38,413 bases of DNA, from assembly GCA_001002135.1 (NCBI GenBank), contig LCLP01000003.1, positions 1-38,413 on the forward strand, read 5' to 3'. The notes beneath the pieces are model-generated. The model was not told the DNA's origin, did no database searches, and was given only the letters and a program-made list of their open reading frames with translations. Numbering within the stretch: the first letter of the stretch is position 1; each line of letters opens with the position of its first letter. This DNA is from Candidatus Pacebacteria bacterium GW2011_GWA1_46_10 (lineage in GTDB: Bacteria > Patescibacteriota > Microgenomatia > UBA1400 > PJMF01). Positions 4,486 through 30,625 of the stretch are shown here, piece by piece. Both the position numbers and the translations under genes were made by a program.

Positions 4486-5001
4486 TCATTGCCAAGCCCC
4501 TTCACTCACCCGACCCTCACGGTACAGTGTGAACAAATAGTTGTTTTCATTGTTGGCCACCACAATATCTTGACTCGCCGCGCCACCAGGCAAAGTCACC
4601 CCAGCATTGAGAACTTGAAAAGTGGTGTCAATGTTCGGACTGACTGTCACATGAGCCGGCAACTGAAATGTTTGAGCAGTATTAGCGGTCCCAGCACCAC
4701 AAACCGCTTGTAGAGATACCTCCGTGGCCGTACCAACCAAATATGTTTGTACCCGATAACCGTTCAGTTGCTCACAGCCACCCAAATCACCCGCCGCCGT
4801 CTTCGTTTGGGCCAGTTGAAAATAGGTCTTTAGCTCATCGACAGCGTTAATCACAGCTCGTTTTTCAGTAAAATTACTGAAAGCTATTAACCCATTCCCC
4901 AATAGCACGATTGAAATAACCACCACCACCAACAGCTCAATTAAGGTAAAACCAGTAGAAGAAATAGCCTTTCTCATCCATCCATTACTCTTAACTATCA
5001 A
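4486..5001 (-). CDS. Type IV prepilin-like protein (real start probably the ATG of MRKAISSTGFTLIELL)
   Basis: GFTLIELLVVVVISIVLLGNG motif; the track start is a TTG inside a heptamer repeat. Confidence 0.85.
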   Translation of the reverse strand: MIVKSNGWMRKAISSTGFTLIELLVVVVISIVLLGNGLIAFSNFTEKRAVINAVDELKTYFQLAQTKTAAGDLGGCEQLNGYRVQTYLVGTATEVSLQAVCGAGTANTAQTFQLPAHVTVSPNIDTTFQVLNAGVTLPGGAASQDIVVANNENNYLFTLYREGRVSEGAWQ

Positions 5002-5072
5002 CTATAAACTATTCACTATAAACTTTTTTACTTCAAACTATTCACTATAAACTTTTTACTTTCACTTTTTCC

Positions 5073-5516
5073 TCAAGGGTTGCTCACTGTATACGGCGTA
5101 TCATCCGGTTCAAGGAGCGCTTCCAGAGTAAAACCCGTGGCCTCAGTCGTGCCACAGTTACCAACTCCCGCCGGCGTATACGTATAGAGTGGAATACTCT
5201 CAGAGCCCTGTGGATCGTAGGGAGTCTCATTAAGGTAACTGCTGATCGTAGTCAACATCGCCGTGTAGGTCGTATCGGGCGGGTAGCACCCGTTATCACT
5301 GCGATACAGCACTAGAGCCTGACGAACCGTCTGTAAGTCAGTTTTTCGCTTGGCGTTGCGGCTGCTTTGACTGGCACTGCGATAACTGATCAAGGCGATG
5401 GTACTCAGAACAATCATGATCGTTGCCACCACCAGTAGTTCGATCATAGTAAACCCTGGAGATTTTTTTAGTTTAAAGTTCATAGCTCGTTTGCTCACTG
5501 TAAATTCGTCAAACAA
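5073..5516 (-). CDS. Type IV prepilin-like protein
   Basis: GFTMIELLVVATIMIVLSTIALISYRSASQSSRNAKRKTDLQTVRQAL, GspG/PilA-like. Confidence 0.88.
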   Translation of the reverse strand: MFDEFTVSKRAMNFKLKKSPGFTMIELLVVATIMIVLSTIALISYRSASQSSRNAKRKTDLQTVRQALVLYRSDNGCYPPDTTYTAMLTTISSYLNETPYDPQGSESIPLYTYTPAGVGNCGTTEATGFTLEALLEPDDTPYTVSNP

Positions 5517-5959
5517 TAATAGTCACCGCCCGAGTTATAACTGCACGTACCGGGCGTCACCGGCAGATCGGCGTTACCCGTACCACTTTCCAAATAAGCA
5601 CAGACACAATACCCGCTGACCGTGCACCCATTGGCAGTGTTGTAGACATAATCACCGCTGTTTCTGGGATCGACCGGCAAACCACCGGGCATGAGTGAGC
5701 CAGAGCCGCTATTATAATCAGCCATGGTACTACAGGCCTCATACGTGCTATTTTCCGCTCGATACTGCTCAAAGGCATCCTGCATCGCTTTGATATCCGA
5801 CCGCCGCCGAGAATCACGGCCAGTTTTTTGGGCCGTCGTAAAAGCCACTGTGCCGATCGAGACCAAAATCCCAATGATCGAAATCACAACCAACAACTCC
5901 AATAAACTAAACCCGAGATATTTCTTCATGTCTTTCTCCTTGTTACTCTGGTACCACAC
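5495..5959 (-). CDS. Type IV prepilin-like protein
   Basis: GFSLLELLVVISIIGILVSIGTVAF motif; start probably MKKYLGFSLLELL. Confidence 0.88.
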   Translation of the reverse strand: MWYQSNKEKDMKKYLGFSLLELLVVISIIGILVSIGTVAFTTAQKTGRDSRRRSDIKAMQDAFEQYRAENSTYEACSTMADYNSGSGSLMPGGLPVDPRNSGDYVYNTANGCTVSGYCVCAYLESGTGNADLPVTPGTCSYNSGGDYYCLTNLQ

Positions 5960-26485: not shown

Positions 26486-27205
26486 TTATTTTGCCGCTTT
26501 TTTACCCGCCGCGTAAGCACCAGTTAACTCCTTGAGCACCAAGGACACACTGTTGACTGCGTCATCGTTACCAGGAATAACAATGTTGACCGAACCGGGG
26601 TCGGTATCAGAATCAACCAGTGCTATAACTGGCACCTCAACCATCTCAGCTTCGGTCACAGTAATTTCTTCCCGTTTTGGATCGATCACCACTAAACAAT
26701 CTGGTTTACCTTTGAGACCCTTGACACCTTCAAAGAATCGCTCCAATCTACCGTGCTGTTTTTCTAGCTGCACCCGCTCAAACTTGGTGTAGCCATCGAA
26801 ACGCCCTGAGGCCAAACCTTCTTCAATGTCATTCATCTTGCGGATTGATTTGCTGATCTGGTCCCAATTGGTCAGCATGCCACCCATCCAGCGCTGGGCC
26901 ACAAAGAAAGCTTCCGCTTTCTGGGCCGCTTCTTTGAGTAAATCCCTGGCCTGTCGCTTAGTGCCAACAAAAATCACTTTTTTACCGGCTTGACCGAGGC
27001 TGTAGAGATAGTTGTAAGCAACTCTTAATTGCCGGGCGGTTTTGGCTAAATCAAAAATATGAACCCCATCTTTTTCCATGTGAATATACTCTTTCATCTT
27101 GGGGTGCCACTTGGCGCTGGCGTGGCCAAAATGCATGCCGGCCTCCAAGAGGTCTCGCAGATCATATTCCGGCGCTTTGTCAGGTAAATTTGAAATATCA
27201 ATCAT
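26486..27205 (-). CDS. rpsB: 30S ribosomal protein S2
   Basis: LLEAGMHFGHASAKWHPKMKEYIHMEKDGVHIFDLAKT, RWMGGMLTNW, PVIALVDSDTDP. Confidence 0.96.
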   Translation of the reverse strand: MIDISNLPDKAPEYDLRDLLEAGMHFGHASAKWHPKMKEYIHMEKDGVHIFDLAKTARQLRVAYNYLYSLGQAGKKVIFVGTKRQARDLLKEAAQKAEAFFVAQRWMGGMLTNWDQISKSIRKMNDIEEGLASGRFDGYTKFERVQLEKQHGRLERFFEGVKGLKGKPDCLVVIDPKREEITVTEAEMVEVPVIALVDSDTDPGSVNIVIPGNDDAVNSVSLVLKELTGAYAAGKKAAK

Positions 27206-27326
27206 TGTCTGTCCTTATTCGTCCCGCTTAGCGGGACTCGCTGCTCAACGTCAGATGCAGGACCAAAAACGCGAGAGCGAATACCTTGTAAGGGCAGCAT
27301 TGTATCACACACCGAGCAACCACTCA

Positions 27327-27593
27327 CTATTTTTTTAGAAAATAGTTGTAAGTGCTGGCAAAAAGATAGCCAACCAACCAAGTTCCGGCCGTCGCCGTAA
27401 TCAAACCTTGGATAAATGATCCCCACGTGACATTAAAAACTGAGATACGACTTAGATCAAGCCCGTGAAACCACGATTGGGCAACACTCATGGTTAGATC
27501 TGGCAAAAGGACGACAGCAGCGGCACAAACGACATAGATTACTGCCGTTGTCACTGCCAATGCCTTAGCTGTGGCATTCGGTTCATGTTTCAT
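27327..27593 (-). CDS. Small two-TM membrane protein, DUF5676-like
   Basis: Two TM segments and FNVTWGSFIQGLITATAGTWLVGYLFASTYNYF. Confidence 0.6.
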   Translation of the reverse strand: MKHEPNATAKALAVTTAVIYVVCAAAVVLLPDLTMSVAQSWFHGLDLSRISVFNVTWGSFIQGLITATAGTWLVGYLFASTYNYFLKK

Positions 27594-27595
27594 TT

Positions 27596-28108
27596 TTACT
27601 CACCCCCTTTCAAATCCCAGCGGAAAGTGCGTTCAACAATGCCGCCGATATTTTTTACTATGATAGAGAGACTATTAGGCCTTGGGGAAATAGCGTTAAA
27701 AAACAATTCTCCCTCACGATGATGACCTTCAGGTGGTGAACCTTCCCAAGCAATTGGTTGAAACGAATTATCCTGATCGTCGGCCATAGTGATCACTTTG
27801 GTCAGATCCTGATTCAATTCTTCAGAATGCGTATCTAAAGCGAGCTTAAACTTCCAAATGGTCGAGCTTACTGAAAGATCAGTGGGAGTAACCTCAATAG
27901 TCACGGGTCCTTCTTCACTGGTTTGGGGGGCTAATGCAGTTTGATTGGCCGGAGTTGTTTGAGAAGAAGAAACGCTAGCATCAGTATTCTCCTGTCGAGG
28001 CTGGAGGCGAAAGAAAACAACCAACCCTGCAATAACGATCAAAATGACGAAAATTAGATACTTTATTGAGTTTTGTTGAATTTTCGTAGCTGATACAGCA
28101 TATAGCAT
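27596..28108 (-). CDS. Membrane-anchored extracytoplasmic protein
   Basis: N-terminal TM, Ser/Thr/Gln-rich spacer, then a beta-rich domain. Confidence 0.65.
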   Translation of the reverse strand: MLYAVSATKIQQNSIKYLIFVILIVIAGLVVFFRLQPRQENTDASVSSSQTTPANQTALAPQTSEEGPVTIEVTPTDLSVSSTIWKFKLALDTHSEELNQDLTKVITMADDQDNSFQPIAWEGSPPEGHHREGELFFNAISPRPNSLSIIVKNIGGIVERTFRWDLKGGE

Positions 28109-28527
28109 AGGCCAGCGAGATTAAATATCAGCCCGAGCCAAAAAAGTTGGATTTGGTATTGTCCAATGACTGTCACAATGCCAACCACACCGAGAATGGG
28201 CAAAAAATTAACCAGATAATGAGCGCAACAGGAAACCATAGCCGCGGTGGAGGTAGTCCCAGAAACAACCACTATTCTCCCTGAGATTGCTTGTTTTTCT
28301 TTCATGGCCGCTTTCAACTGGCTATAGAGTCCAACCTGAATACCAAAACCCACCGCTAGCGGTACCACAAAATACCAATACCTGGAAAATTGGTCGAGCA
28401 TAAAACTCCAGCCTGAAACGAGTGAAACAATGGTGACGTACACCAACAACAAAACAGCTGACGCTACTGCGCCCTTGGCCACTGAGGTCATAAAGTTATT
28501 CCAATTTGCCGAGAACCCCAACCACAA
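28063..28527 (-). CDS. Four-TM membrane protein with SCCAH motif
   Basis: Four hydrophobic segments; TTSTAAMVSCCAHYLVNFLPILG. Confidence 0.7.
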   Translation of the reverse strand: MWLGFSANWNNFMTSVAKGAVASAVLLLVYVTIVSLVSGWSFMLDQFSRYWYFVVPLAVGFGIQVGLYSQLKAAMKEKQAISGRIVVVSGTTSTAAMVSCCAHYLVNFLPILGVVGIVTVIGQYQIQLFWLGLIFNLAGLCYMLYQLRKFNKTQ

Positions 28528-28533
28528 TCTTTC

Positions 28534-28659
28534 TTATTCGTCTTCGCTTTTTTCTTCTTTCACCACCATCGCCATGCCGCATTGCGGACAATTGCCTGGC
28601 TGATCAGAGGTTTCTTCCGGGTGCATCGGGCAAGCATACATTGGTTGATCTCCTTCCAT
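28534..28659 (-). CDS. 41-aa heavy-metal-binding-domain protein
   Basis: MEGDQPMYACPMHPEETSDQPGNCPQCGMAMVVKEEKSEDE; YxCPMHPE...CPxCGM motif; SD AAAGGAGG at 28665-28672. Below the track size cutoff. Confidence 0.9.
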   Translation of the reverse strand: MEGDQPMYACPMHPEETSDQPGNCPQCGMAMVVKEEKSEDE

Positions 28660-28718
28660 AACGGCCTCCTTTCTTTTACCAATATACATGAAAACAGCTC
28701 ATTACTGTGTGGGACACG

Positions 28719-28778
28719 TTACTCACTGACTAATTCAACCGCATTCTCCATGAGACTCACTACAGTCATCGGACCAAC
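28719..28778 (-). pseudogene. Displaced 3'-end fragment of folD
   Basis: Minus strand encodes VGPMTVVSLMENAVELVSE*; the intact FolD ends VGPMTVVSLMENAITLAMG. Confidence 0.85.
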
Positions 28779-28799
28779 TCTGACACATATTGTTAATCG

Positions 28800-29708
28800 T
28801 TAGATTTTTAGTTTTTCAACCATTACTCCGGCCAAAATTATCAAAATTCCACCTAAGATTTGCACTGACGTCATCGTTTCTCCCAATAACGGTATAGCCA
28901 TCAAAGCCACAAATACTGGAGTAAATGAGAATACCATCGTCACAAAAGAGGCGGAAGCGTGTTTGTAGGCCGTAAATCTAAATTGTGTAAGAAATATATA
29001 CCCCACAGAAAGAAGTAAAATTAACCAAAAATTAACTGGTAATTGAAGGCTTGTAAAAGCAAGAGCAATCAACACATTTGGTAAAAACCCTAGGATTACA
29101 CTCCCAGCCGCACTCACATTTGAACTCATTCGGTTAGTTGCCATTTTCCCTAAAACGTTATTCCCCAAAGCAATCAGTGCTGCCTGGATTAGAGTGAAAG
29201 TGTCACCTAGAGTTAGCGCTAGTGTTTTACCACTTGTGGTTAACAAATATGCACCAACAAGCAAAACGACTGCCAAGAAAATCTTTTTGTTTGTAATTTT
29301 CTCTTTCAGGAAAATGGCGGCAAAAATGACGGTAAAAATAATCACCATTCTGATCAAGAAAGCGTAGTTGATAGCGGGGCTGTATTTGAGCGCTAAAATT
29401 TCAGTCAGCTTGACTCCAACTGCGCTTATCCCTGCCATCCACAACAAAATGGAGTAATCTTTTCTGGTCAGCTTTTTAATTTCATCTTTTGATTGAAAAG
29501 CCGTAAACAACCAATACGGAAGAGTAAGTAAGGCGGTCCAAAAAAGCACGTTATAAACGTTTTCACCACTCTGAAGAATAATTCTCAATATCACAATGGT
29601 AACTGCCCAGGTAAAAGCGCTTAAAAAAGTGAAGTAAAAACCCCTGCTGATCGTCATAAAAACTGGGCTTGATTGTAACACGCCAAGGATATTCTCAATA
29701 CGCATCAA
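28800..29708 (-). CDS. EamA/DMT-family transporter
   Basis: About ten TM segments in two repeats; typical ...PLLGETMTSVQILGGILIILAGV end. Confidence 0.85.
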   Translation of the reverse strand: MMRIENILGVLQSSPVFMTISRGFYFTFLSAFTWAVTIVILRIILQSGENVYNVLFWTALLTLPYWLFTAFQSKDEIKKLTRKDYSILLWMAGISAVGVKLTEILALKYSPAINYAFLIRMVIIFTVIFAAIFLKEKITNKKIFLAVVLLVGAYLLTTSGKTLALTLGDTFTLIQAALIALGNNVLGKMATNRMSSNVSAAGSVILGFLPNVLIALAFTSLQLPVNFWLILLLSVGYIFLTQFRFTAYKHASASFVTMVFSFTPVFVALMAIPLLGETMTSVQILGGILIILAGVMVEKLKI

Positions 29709-30625
29709 CCCATAGCGAGGGTAATAGCATTTTCCATTAGGCTAACGACGGTCATTGGACCAACACCGCCGGGCACGGGAGTAATGACTGCGGCTTTAGT
29801 TGCTACACTCTCAAAATCAAGATCGCCTTTCGGCTCACCAACATCAATGGCAATTACCCCTTCTTTAACCATCTGACCGGTAACCAATTTGTTTCGGCCA
29901 GTGGCGCTGACTACAATGTCAGCATCCATTAAAAATTTTTTTTGTTCTATTCGGCTCTTTAGTTCCTGTGAACCAATCATTTCTGCAGTACATTCCTCTG
30001 ACTGAAGTAGGGCGTAGAGTGGTTGGCCTAGTAAATCAGACTTCCCTAAAATTACAGTTTTGAAATGCTTTTGGCGTAAATGATTAAAAAGCTGGGTGGC
30101 GTGGAACGCTTCTTTCAAGAGTTCAATCACCGCCTTACACGTCGCGGGTAAGACTTTGCCCTCTTTTTTCCAAGTGCCGTGCTGAACTGATTCTAAAGTT
30201 TTTGGATGGAGACCGTCGACGTCTTTACGCAGAGTGATCGCTGTTACCAACTGCCACCACCATTGTCGGTATTCAAAATCACCTTTTTCTTTAGTCAGTC
30301 CCCTAGTGGTCAGCCAGGTTTGGCGCCAGGGTTTTTGGACAATAATGCCTGTCACTTGGCCATCCTGATTGAGCTCATGAATCTTCTTAATGGCTAATTC
30401 AACCGGATCGTTGATTGAGAACGAATACACCTGGTAACCGATGCCTAAACTCTCGGCCATTTGACGTTTCAGTTCCGTATATAAAGTACTGCCGGCGTCT
30501 TCGACAAACAGCACGGCCGCCACCACTGGCGGCAAACCCTGGGCACGCAGCAAGAGTGCTTTTTGTTCGAGTCGTTTACGGCGTTGTTCGGCTAACTGAT
30601 GGCCATCGAGAATAATTGCTGACAC
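29705..30625 (-). CDS. folD: Bifunctional methylenetetrahydrofolate dehydrogenase/cyclohydrolase
   Basis: YTELKRQMAESLGI, GIIVQKP, KDVDGLHP, ILGKSDLLGQPL, TPVPGGVGPMT. Confidence 0.93.
   Translation of the reverse strand: MSAIILDGHQLAEQRRKRLEQKALLLRAQGLPPVVAAVLFVEDAGSTLYTELKRQMAESLGIGYQVYSFSINDPVELAIKKIHELNQDGQVTGIIVQKPWRQTWLTTRGLTKEKGDFEYRQWWWQLVTAITLRKDVDGLHPKTLESVQHGTWKKEGKVLPATCKAVIELLKEAFHATQLFNHLRQKHFKTVILGKSDLLGQPLYALLQSEECTAEMIGSQELKSRIEQKKFLMDADIVVSATGRNKLVTGQMVKEGVIAIDVGEPKGDLDFESVATKAAVITPVPGGVGPMTVVSLMENAITLAMG

Follow-up and report, generated by a model that had tools for sequence, protein, structure and literature searches.

The folD gene in the window examined here, a stretch of 38,413 nucleotides analyzed as a whole, received an insertion at its 3' end, and a second folD 3' end was left beyond the inserted DNA. 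Intact folD lies on the minus strand at 29705..30625 and contains the Pfam domains THF_DHG_CYH and THF_DHG_CYH_C; its last 60 bp (29705-29764) translate to VGPMTVVSLMENAITLAMG and the stop codon. The remnant, also on the minus strand, occupies the 60 bp at 28719..28778 and translates to VGPMTVVSLMENAVELVSE, stop codon included. Relatives have empty sites at this position, the body of folD is of native kinship, and the remnant has a native-like tail. We interpret the remnant as the displaced native 3' end of folD.

The repeat formed by the two ends consists of the first 38 bases of the remnant (28741-28778) and the matching block of the intact gene (29727..29764, minus strand, encoding VGPMTVVSLMENA), which are identical at 31 of 38 positions. 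This pair is the longest direct repeat within 27200-29850 (D1, spacing 986), and the runner-up match to the block anywhere in the window reaches 22/38. A chance match was dismissed, since the binomial expectation for 31/38 is about 3e-8 per window (7e-7 per genome). All seven differences are synonymous and fall at codon position 3, where 25 of the 108 single changes possible in the block would be synonymous; under neutral decay after a duplication, such a pattern has a probability of about 4e-5. It follows that, during their divergence, both ends belonged to working folD genes. The first-pass annotation had reported the relic, its 31/38 match, and the synonymous nature of every difference, and our translations and alignments confirm all three. 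The last six residues, which follow the block, show no agreement (VELVSE in the remnant, ITLAMG in the intact gene). The longest identical run inside the repeat is the 8-bp GTTGGTCC (28771..28778, minus strand), which forms the repeat's first eight bases as well as the right junction of the insert; upstream of it, the alignment finds no similarity between the two copies. The remnant follows the eamA stop codon in the same reading frame and, having no upstream start of its own, is not an ORF by itself. Derivation from a piece of another gene was dismissed on the grounds of this missing start and of the lack of any counterpart in relatives.

The space between the 38-bp copies is filled by an EamA-type transporter gene (Pfam EamA, E 2e-26). 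Its ORF of 302 amino acids, open from 29708, begins upstream of the part common to homologues, and these suggest an ATG at 29657 as the start, 47 nt past the folD stop, giving a gene at 28800..29657 on the minus strand. The earlier placement of eamA exactly between the two copies holds in that the gene fills this space, with the correction that translation probably starts at 29657, inside the 302-residue ORF. The GC content of eamA is about 0.39 compared with about 0.45 around it, making the gene AT-richer than folD and most of the surroundings. Homologues are patchy in distribution, occurring in two genomes of the family (G005 and G071) and in a few of another family of the class, and close ones are found in records titled TM6, Parcubacteria group, and uncultured bacteria, which, with a genome of 0.9 Mb, suggests that the host belongs to the CPR/Patescibacteria. 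The 47-nt spacing suggests that folD and eamA were adjacent in the donor. The samples of the order, class, and phylum and the genome collection yielded no donor in which eamA follows folD, and none of the EamA homologues seen there lay beside folD.

Comparison with the folD loci of close relatives, which the first-pass annotation had proposed as a check, uncovered sites lacking eamA, two of them in the same genus (tails LDLVSA and IELLDM). In these two genomes (G001 and G002) and in the sister genus (G010), folD is followed by rpsB, with neither eamA nor a second folD end, at distances of 520, 125, and 147 bp, respectively, between tblastn matches. Every other relative checked, in the family and the order, has an empty site too, and eamA is absent from the position beside folD in all of them. 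No second VGPMTV end was found in the other folD loci scanned, and the folD end is not reused as a site among relatives. Within the taxonomic order to which the window belongs, folD is located upstream of rpsB and tsf in 50 of the loci compared, the usual gene order in the family being glyA-nfo-folD-rpsB-tsf. The gap between folD and rpsB takes in new DNA readily, because it exceeds 400 bp in 25 of the 50 loci and the rpsB-tsf interval does so in 0 of 50. The folD-rpsB interval is hypervariable (L032-L106), its contents differing between genomes. In one locus (L084 of G063, 4628-5520), folD is seemingly split by a frameshift or stop, either as a pseudogene or through a sequencing error.

A second block of genes separates the folD remnant from the rpsB promoter (27327-28659, minus strand), encoding a heavy-metal-binding (HMBD) peptide, a membrane protein, a protein of no assigned family, and a DUF5676 protein. 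The block is absent from this position in relatives and patchy in the order, and we interpret it as a second, unrelated acquisition. The motif AGTGAGT occurs at both of its edges (27322-27328 and 28721-28727), possibly by chance. The rpsB leader (window 27206-27310, minus strand) is also present in L032-L044 and most of L071-L105. In this leader, the rpsB Shine-Dalgarno stretch AGGAN' can base-pair with an NTCCTG motif located about 30-75 nt upstream, and N and N' covary in all four ways (G/C, T/A, A/T, and C/G) across about 33 members of the order. No Rfam family fits the leader, which resembles an autoregulatory uS2 leader of the pseudoknot type and may perhaps be of more interest than the folD insertion.

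The origin of the two folD ends was examined by treating the body and the tail of the protein separately. The tree for FolD residues 1-245 placed the window gene in a clade with G001, G002, and G010 with support of 99/98, identifying this part as native. For residues 246-306 the window gene fell outside that clade, and its membership in the clade was not rejected by the AU test (p 0.4). Of the two separate trees suggested in the first-pass annotation, that of the 5' part was thus decisive and that of the 3' part gave no resolution. Within the 3' part, residues 251-290 have a best identity of 65% to the genus versus 78% to another genus, the lowest genus-versus-other balance among the 40-residue windows compared. 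The folD tails of the genus and its sister are LDLVSA, IELLDM, and IELLK. In comparisons of six residues each, VELVSE of the remnant scored 14, 11, and 13 against these (family mean 7.2), and ITLAMG of the intact gene scored 4, 0, and 5 (family mean 5.0), with its best scores against other genera. These six-residue comparisons are suggestive of a native-like tail in the remnant and of a tail unlike the genus in the intact gene; at the codon level, comparison of the remnant and the intact end with the genus involves a short, saturated stretch. Most likely the last codons of folD, at least those for ITLAMG, are foreign, and the switch from native to foreign is perhaps located around codon 250. 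From the position of the body in the genus clade and from the tail scores it would follow that folD, itself native, acquired eamA along with a foreign tail at its 3' end, and that its own tail was displaced. The same proposal in the first-pass annotation, of an insertion carrying eamA and a substitute 3' end, is borne out by the empty sites, the genus-like remnant tail, and the native body.

Two other accounts of the folD ends bear on these data. Either a local duplication of the host folD end or the arrival of a foreign remnant with the downstream block, the intact tail then being native, would fit the position of the remnant between eamA and another inserted block (27327-28659). The tail that resembles the genus is, however, that of the remnant and not that of the intact gene, and the synonymous-only divergence and the wholly different last six residues also argue against this account, which we consider highly improbable; local duplication was dismissed on the divergence and the unlike tails. 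In the second account, a whole folD plus eamA would have come from a close congener by a left crossover upstream of folD, and the remnant would be the last of the native folD. Such a replacement accounts for the remnant and the tails as well, and a donor from within the clade of the genus and its sister would be invisible in the tree of residues 1-245. Given an intact tail unlike the genus on a body like the genus, a crossover inside folD is simpler, and we regard replacement of the entire gene as rather unlikely. The xenologous replacement raised as an alternative in the earlier reading amounts to the same event with its left crossover further upstream; because of the kinship of the folD body with the genus, it would take either a close donor or a crossover late in folD.

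The mechanism that we favor begins with incoming DNA, from a bacterium with eamA after folD, that would have struck native folD following uptake of a linear fragment by transformation. On the left side, the donor DNA would have paired with the homologous, conserved 3' stretch of folD, letting the resident 5' part run into the donor tail and keeping the gene whole. On the right side, behind eamA, an illegitimate join to resident folD at the VGPM codons (GTTGGTCC) would leave the resident tail stranded as the 60-bp remnant. We consider transformation, with one homologous crossover, one illegitimate join, and no integrase, to be somewhat probable. Transformation is favored because no integrase was found in the insert or among the listed folD-rpsB ORFs of relatives, the tyrosine recombinases are only Xer-like, and the recipient has competence genes. 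The genome contains predicted DNA-uptake genes, with a ComEC domain (E 1.2e-40) and DprA (E 6.8e-62), and type IV pilus genes, as judged from ORFs, lie within the window. Uptake via ComEC and competence has been stated for Patescibacteria (PMC12455944), and homology-facilitated illegitimate recombination (HFIR) is known in transformable bacteria (PMC3240628). The mechanism also agrees with a repeat differing only synonymously, with empty sites in genus, family, and order, with a native body, with a genus-like remnant tail unlike the intact one, and with a patchy, AT-rich eamA. Against it, the samples yielded no donor with folD then eamA, homologous pairing is inefficient when the block is short and only about 80% identical, the AU test (p 0.4) gives no statistical backing to a foreign origin of FolD residues 246-306, and the event occurs in one genome only, so that an assembly join is possible.

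A site-specific integration, as read in the first-pass annotation, would have involved an element with a copy of the folD end in its attachment site. Recombination at GTTGGTCC would then have completed folD with the tail supplied by the element and left the host tail at the element's far end, the integrase being deleted later or acting from elsewhere. Known integrations into 3' ends have exactly this geometry, the remnant begins at the 8-bp identical run, and synonymous-only differences are expected of an attachment site obliged to restore the gene. The identical run is nonetheless just 8 bp, the insert is just 986 bp with eamA as its sole gene and no integrase, and the folD end is not struck elsewhere among relatives. 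No integrase was recognized among the listed folD-rpsB ORFs of 24 relatives with a gap >430 bp, these ORFs being judged by eye rather than with a profile library. A search of the genome for recombinases of the tyrosine class found two only; one is XerC/D-like by NCBIfam at scores below the curated cut-offs, and the other is Xer-like as judged from its length and sequence only, leaving no dedicated integrase of this class. We therefore do not retain the site-specific reading as our first choice and consider it possible but unlikely.

The event itself is real and well resolved, the mechanism is inferred, each ingredient is already known, and the result is an ordinary kind of HGT scar. Taken by itself, the folD-eamA case is one event. 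The scar makes visible a way for a streamlined CPR-type bacterium to acquire a gene while a core enzyme stays undamaged. We give little credence to the idea that CPR bacteria use the conserved 3' codons of their housekeeping genes as general landing sites at which single foreign genes enter without integrases; if it were true, the incoming fragment would mend the gene end that it breaks, rendering the event harmless. A short synonymous-only copy of a gene end beyond a newcomer gene provides a search signature that could gauge integrase-free gain across CPR genomes.

The arrangement at folD can be compared with elements that integrate into the 3' ends of genes. At the 3' end of icd, the site of phage 21 and e14, the differences are mostly synonymous. 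As with 3'-end integrative elements, the insert at folD is flanked by directly repeated copies of the 3' end of the gene (38 bp, 31/38). SGI1 integrates at the 3' end of trmE (PMC8409611). The folD locus resembles both the trmE and the icd cases in that the gene works with a replacement 3' end and has its original one beyond the cargo; it differs from SGI1, phage 21, and e14 in having no integrase, one cargo gene, and an occurrence in one genome. Among the 15 literature titles listed for folD and integrase, in a search that also matched the word 'fold', none named folD as an integration target. HFIR proceeds by one homologous crossover, which fixes a linear fragment in place, and by illegitimate joining of the fragment's other end (PMC3240628). 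At folD, the right junction shows no similarity upstream of GTTGGTCC, and placing the left crossover would take a donor sequence. The folD case differs from HFIR in that it is read from a scar and its anchor is short and diverged, and in that the join lies within the same gene, leaving behind a copy of that gene's end.
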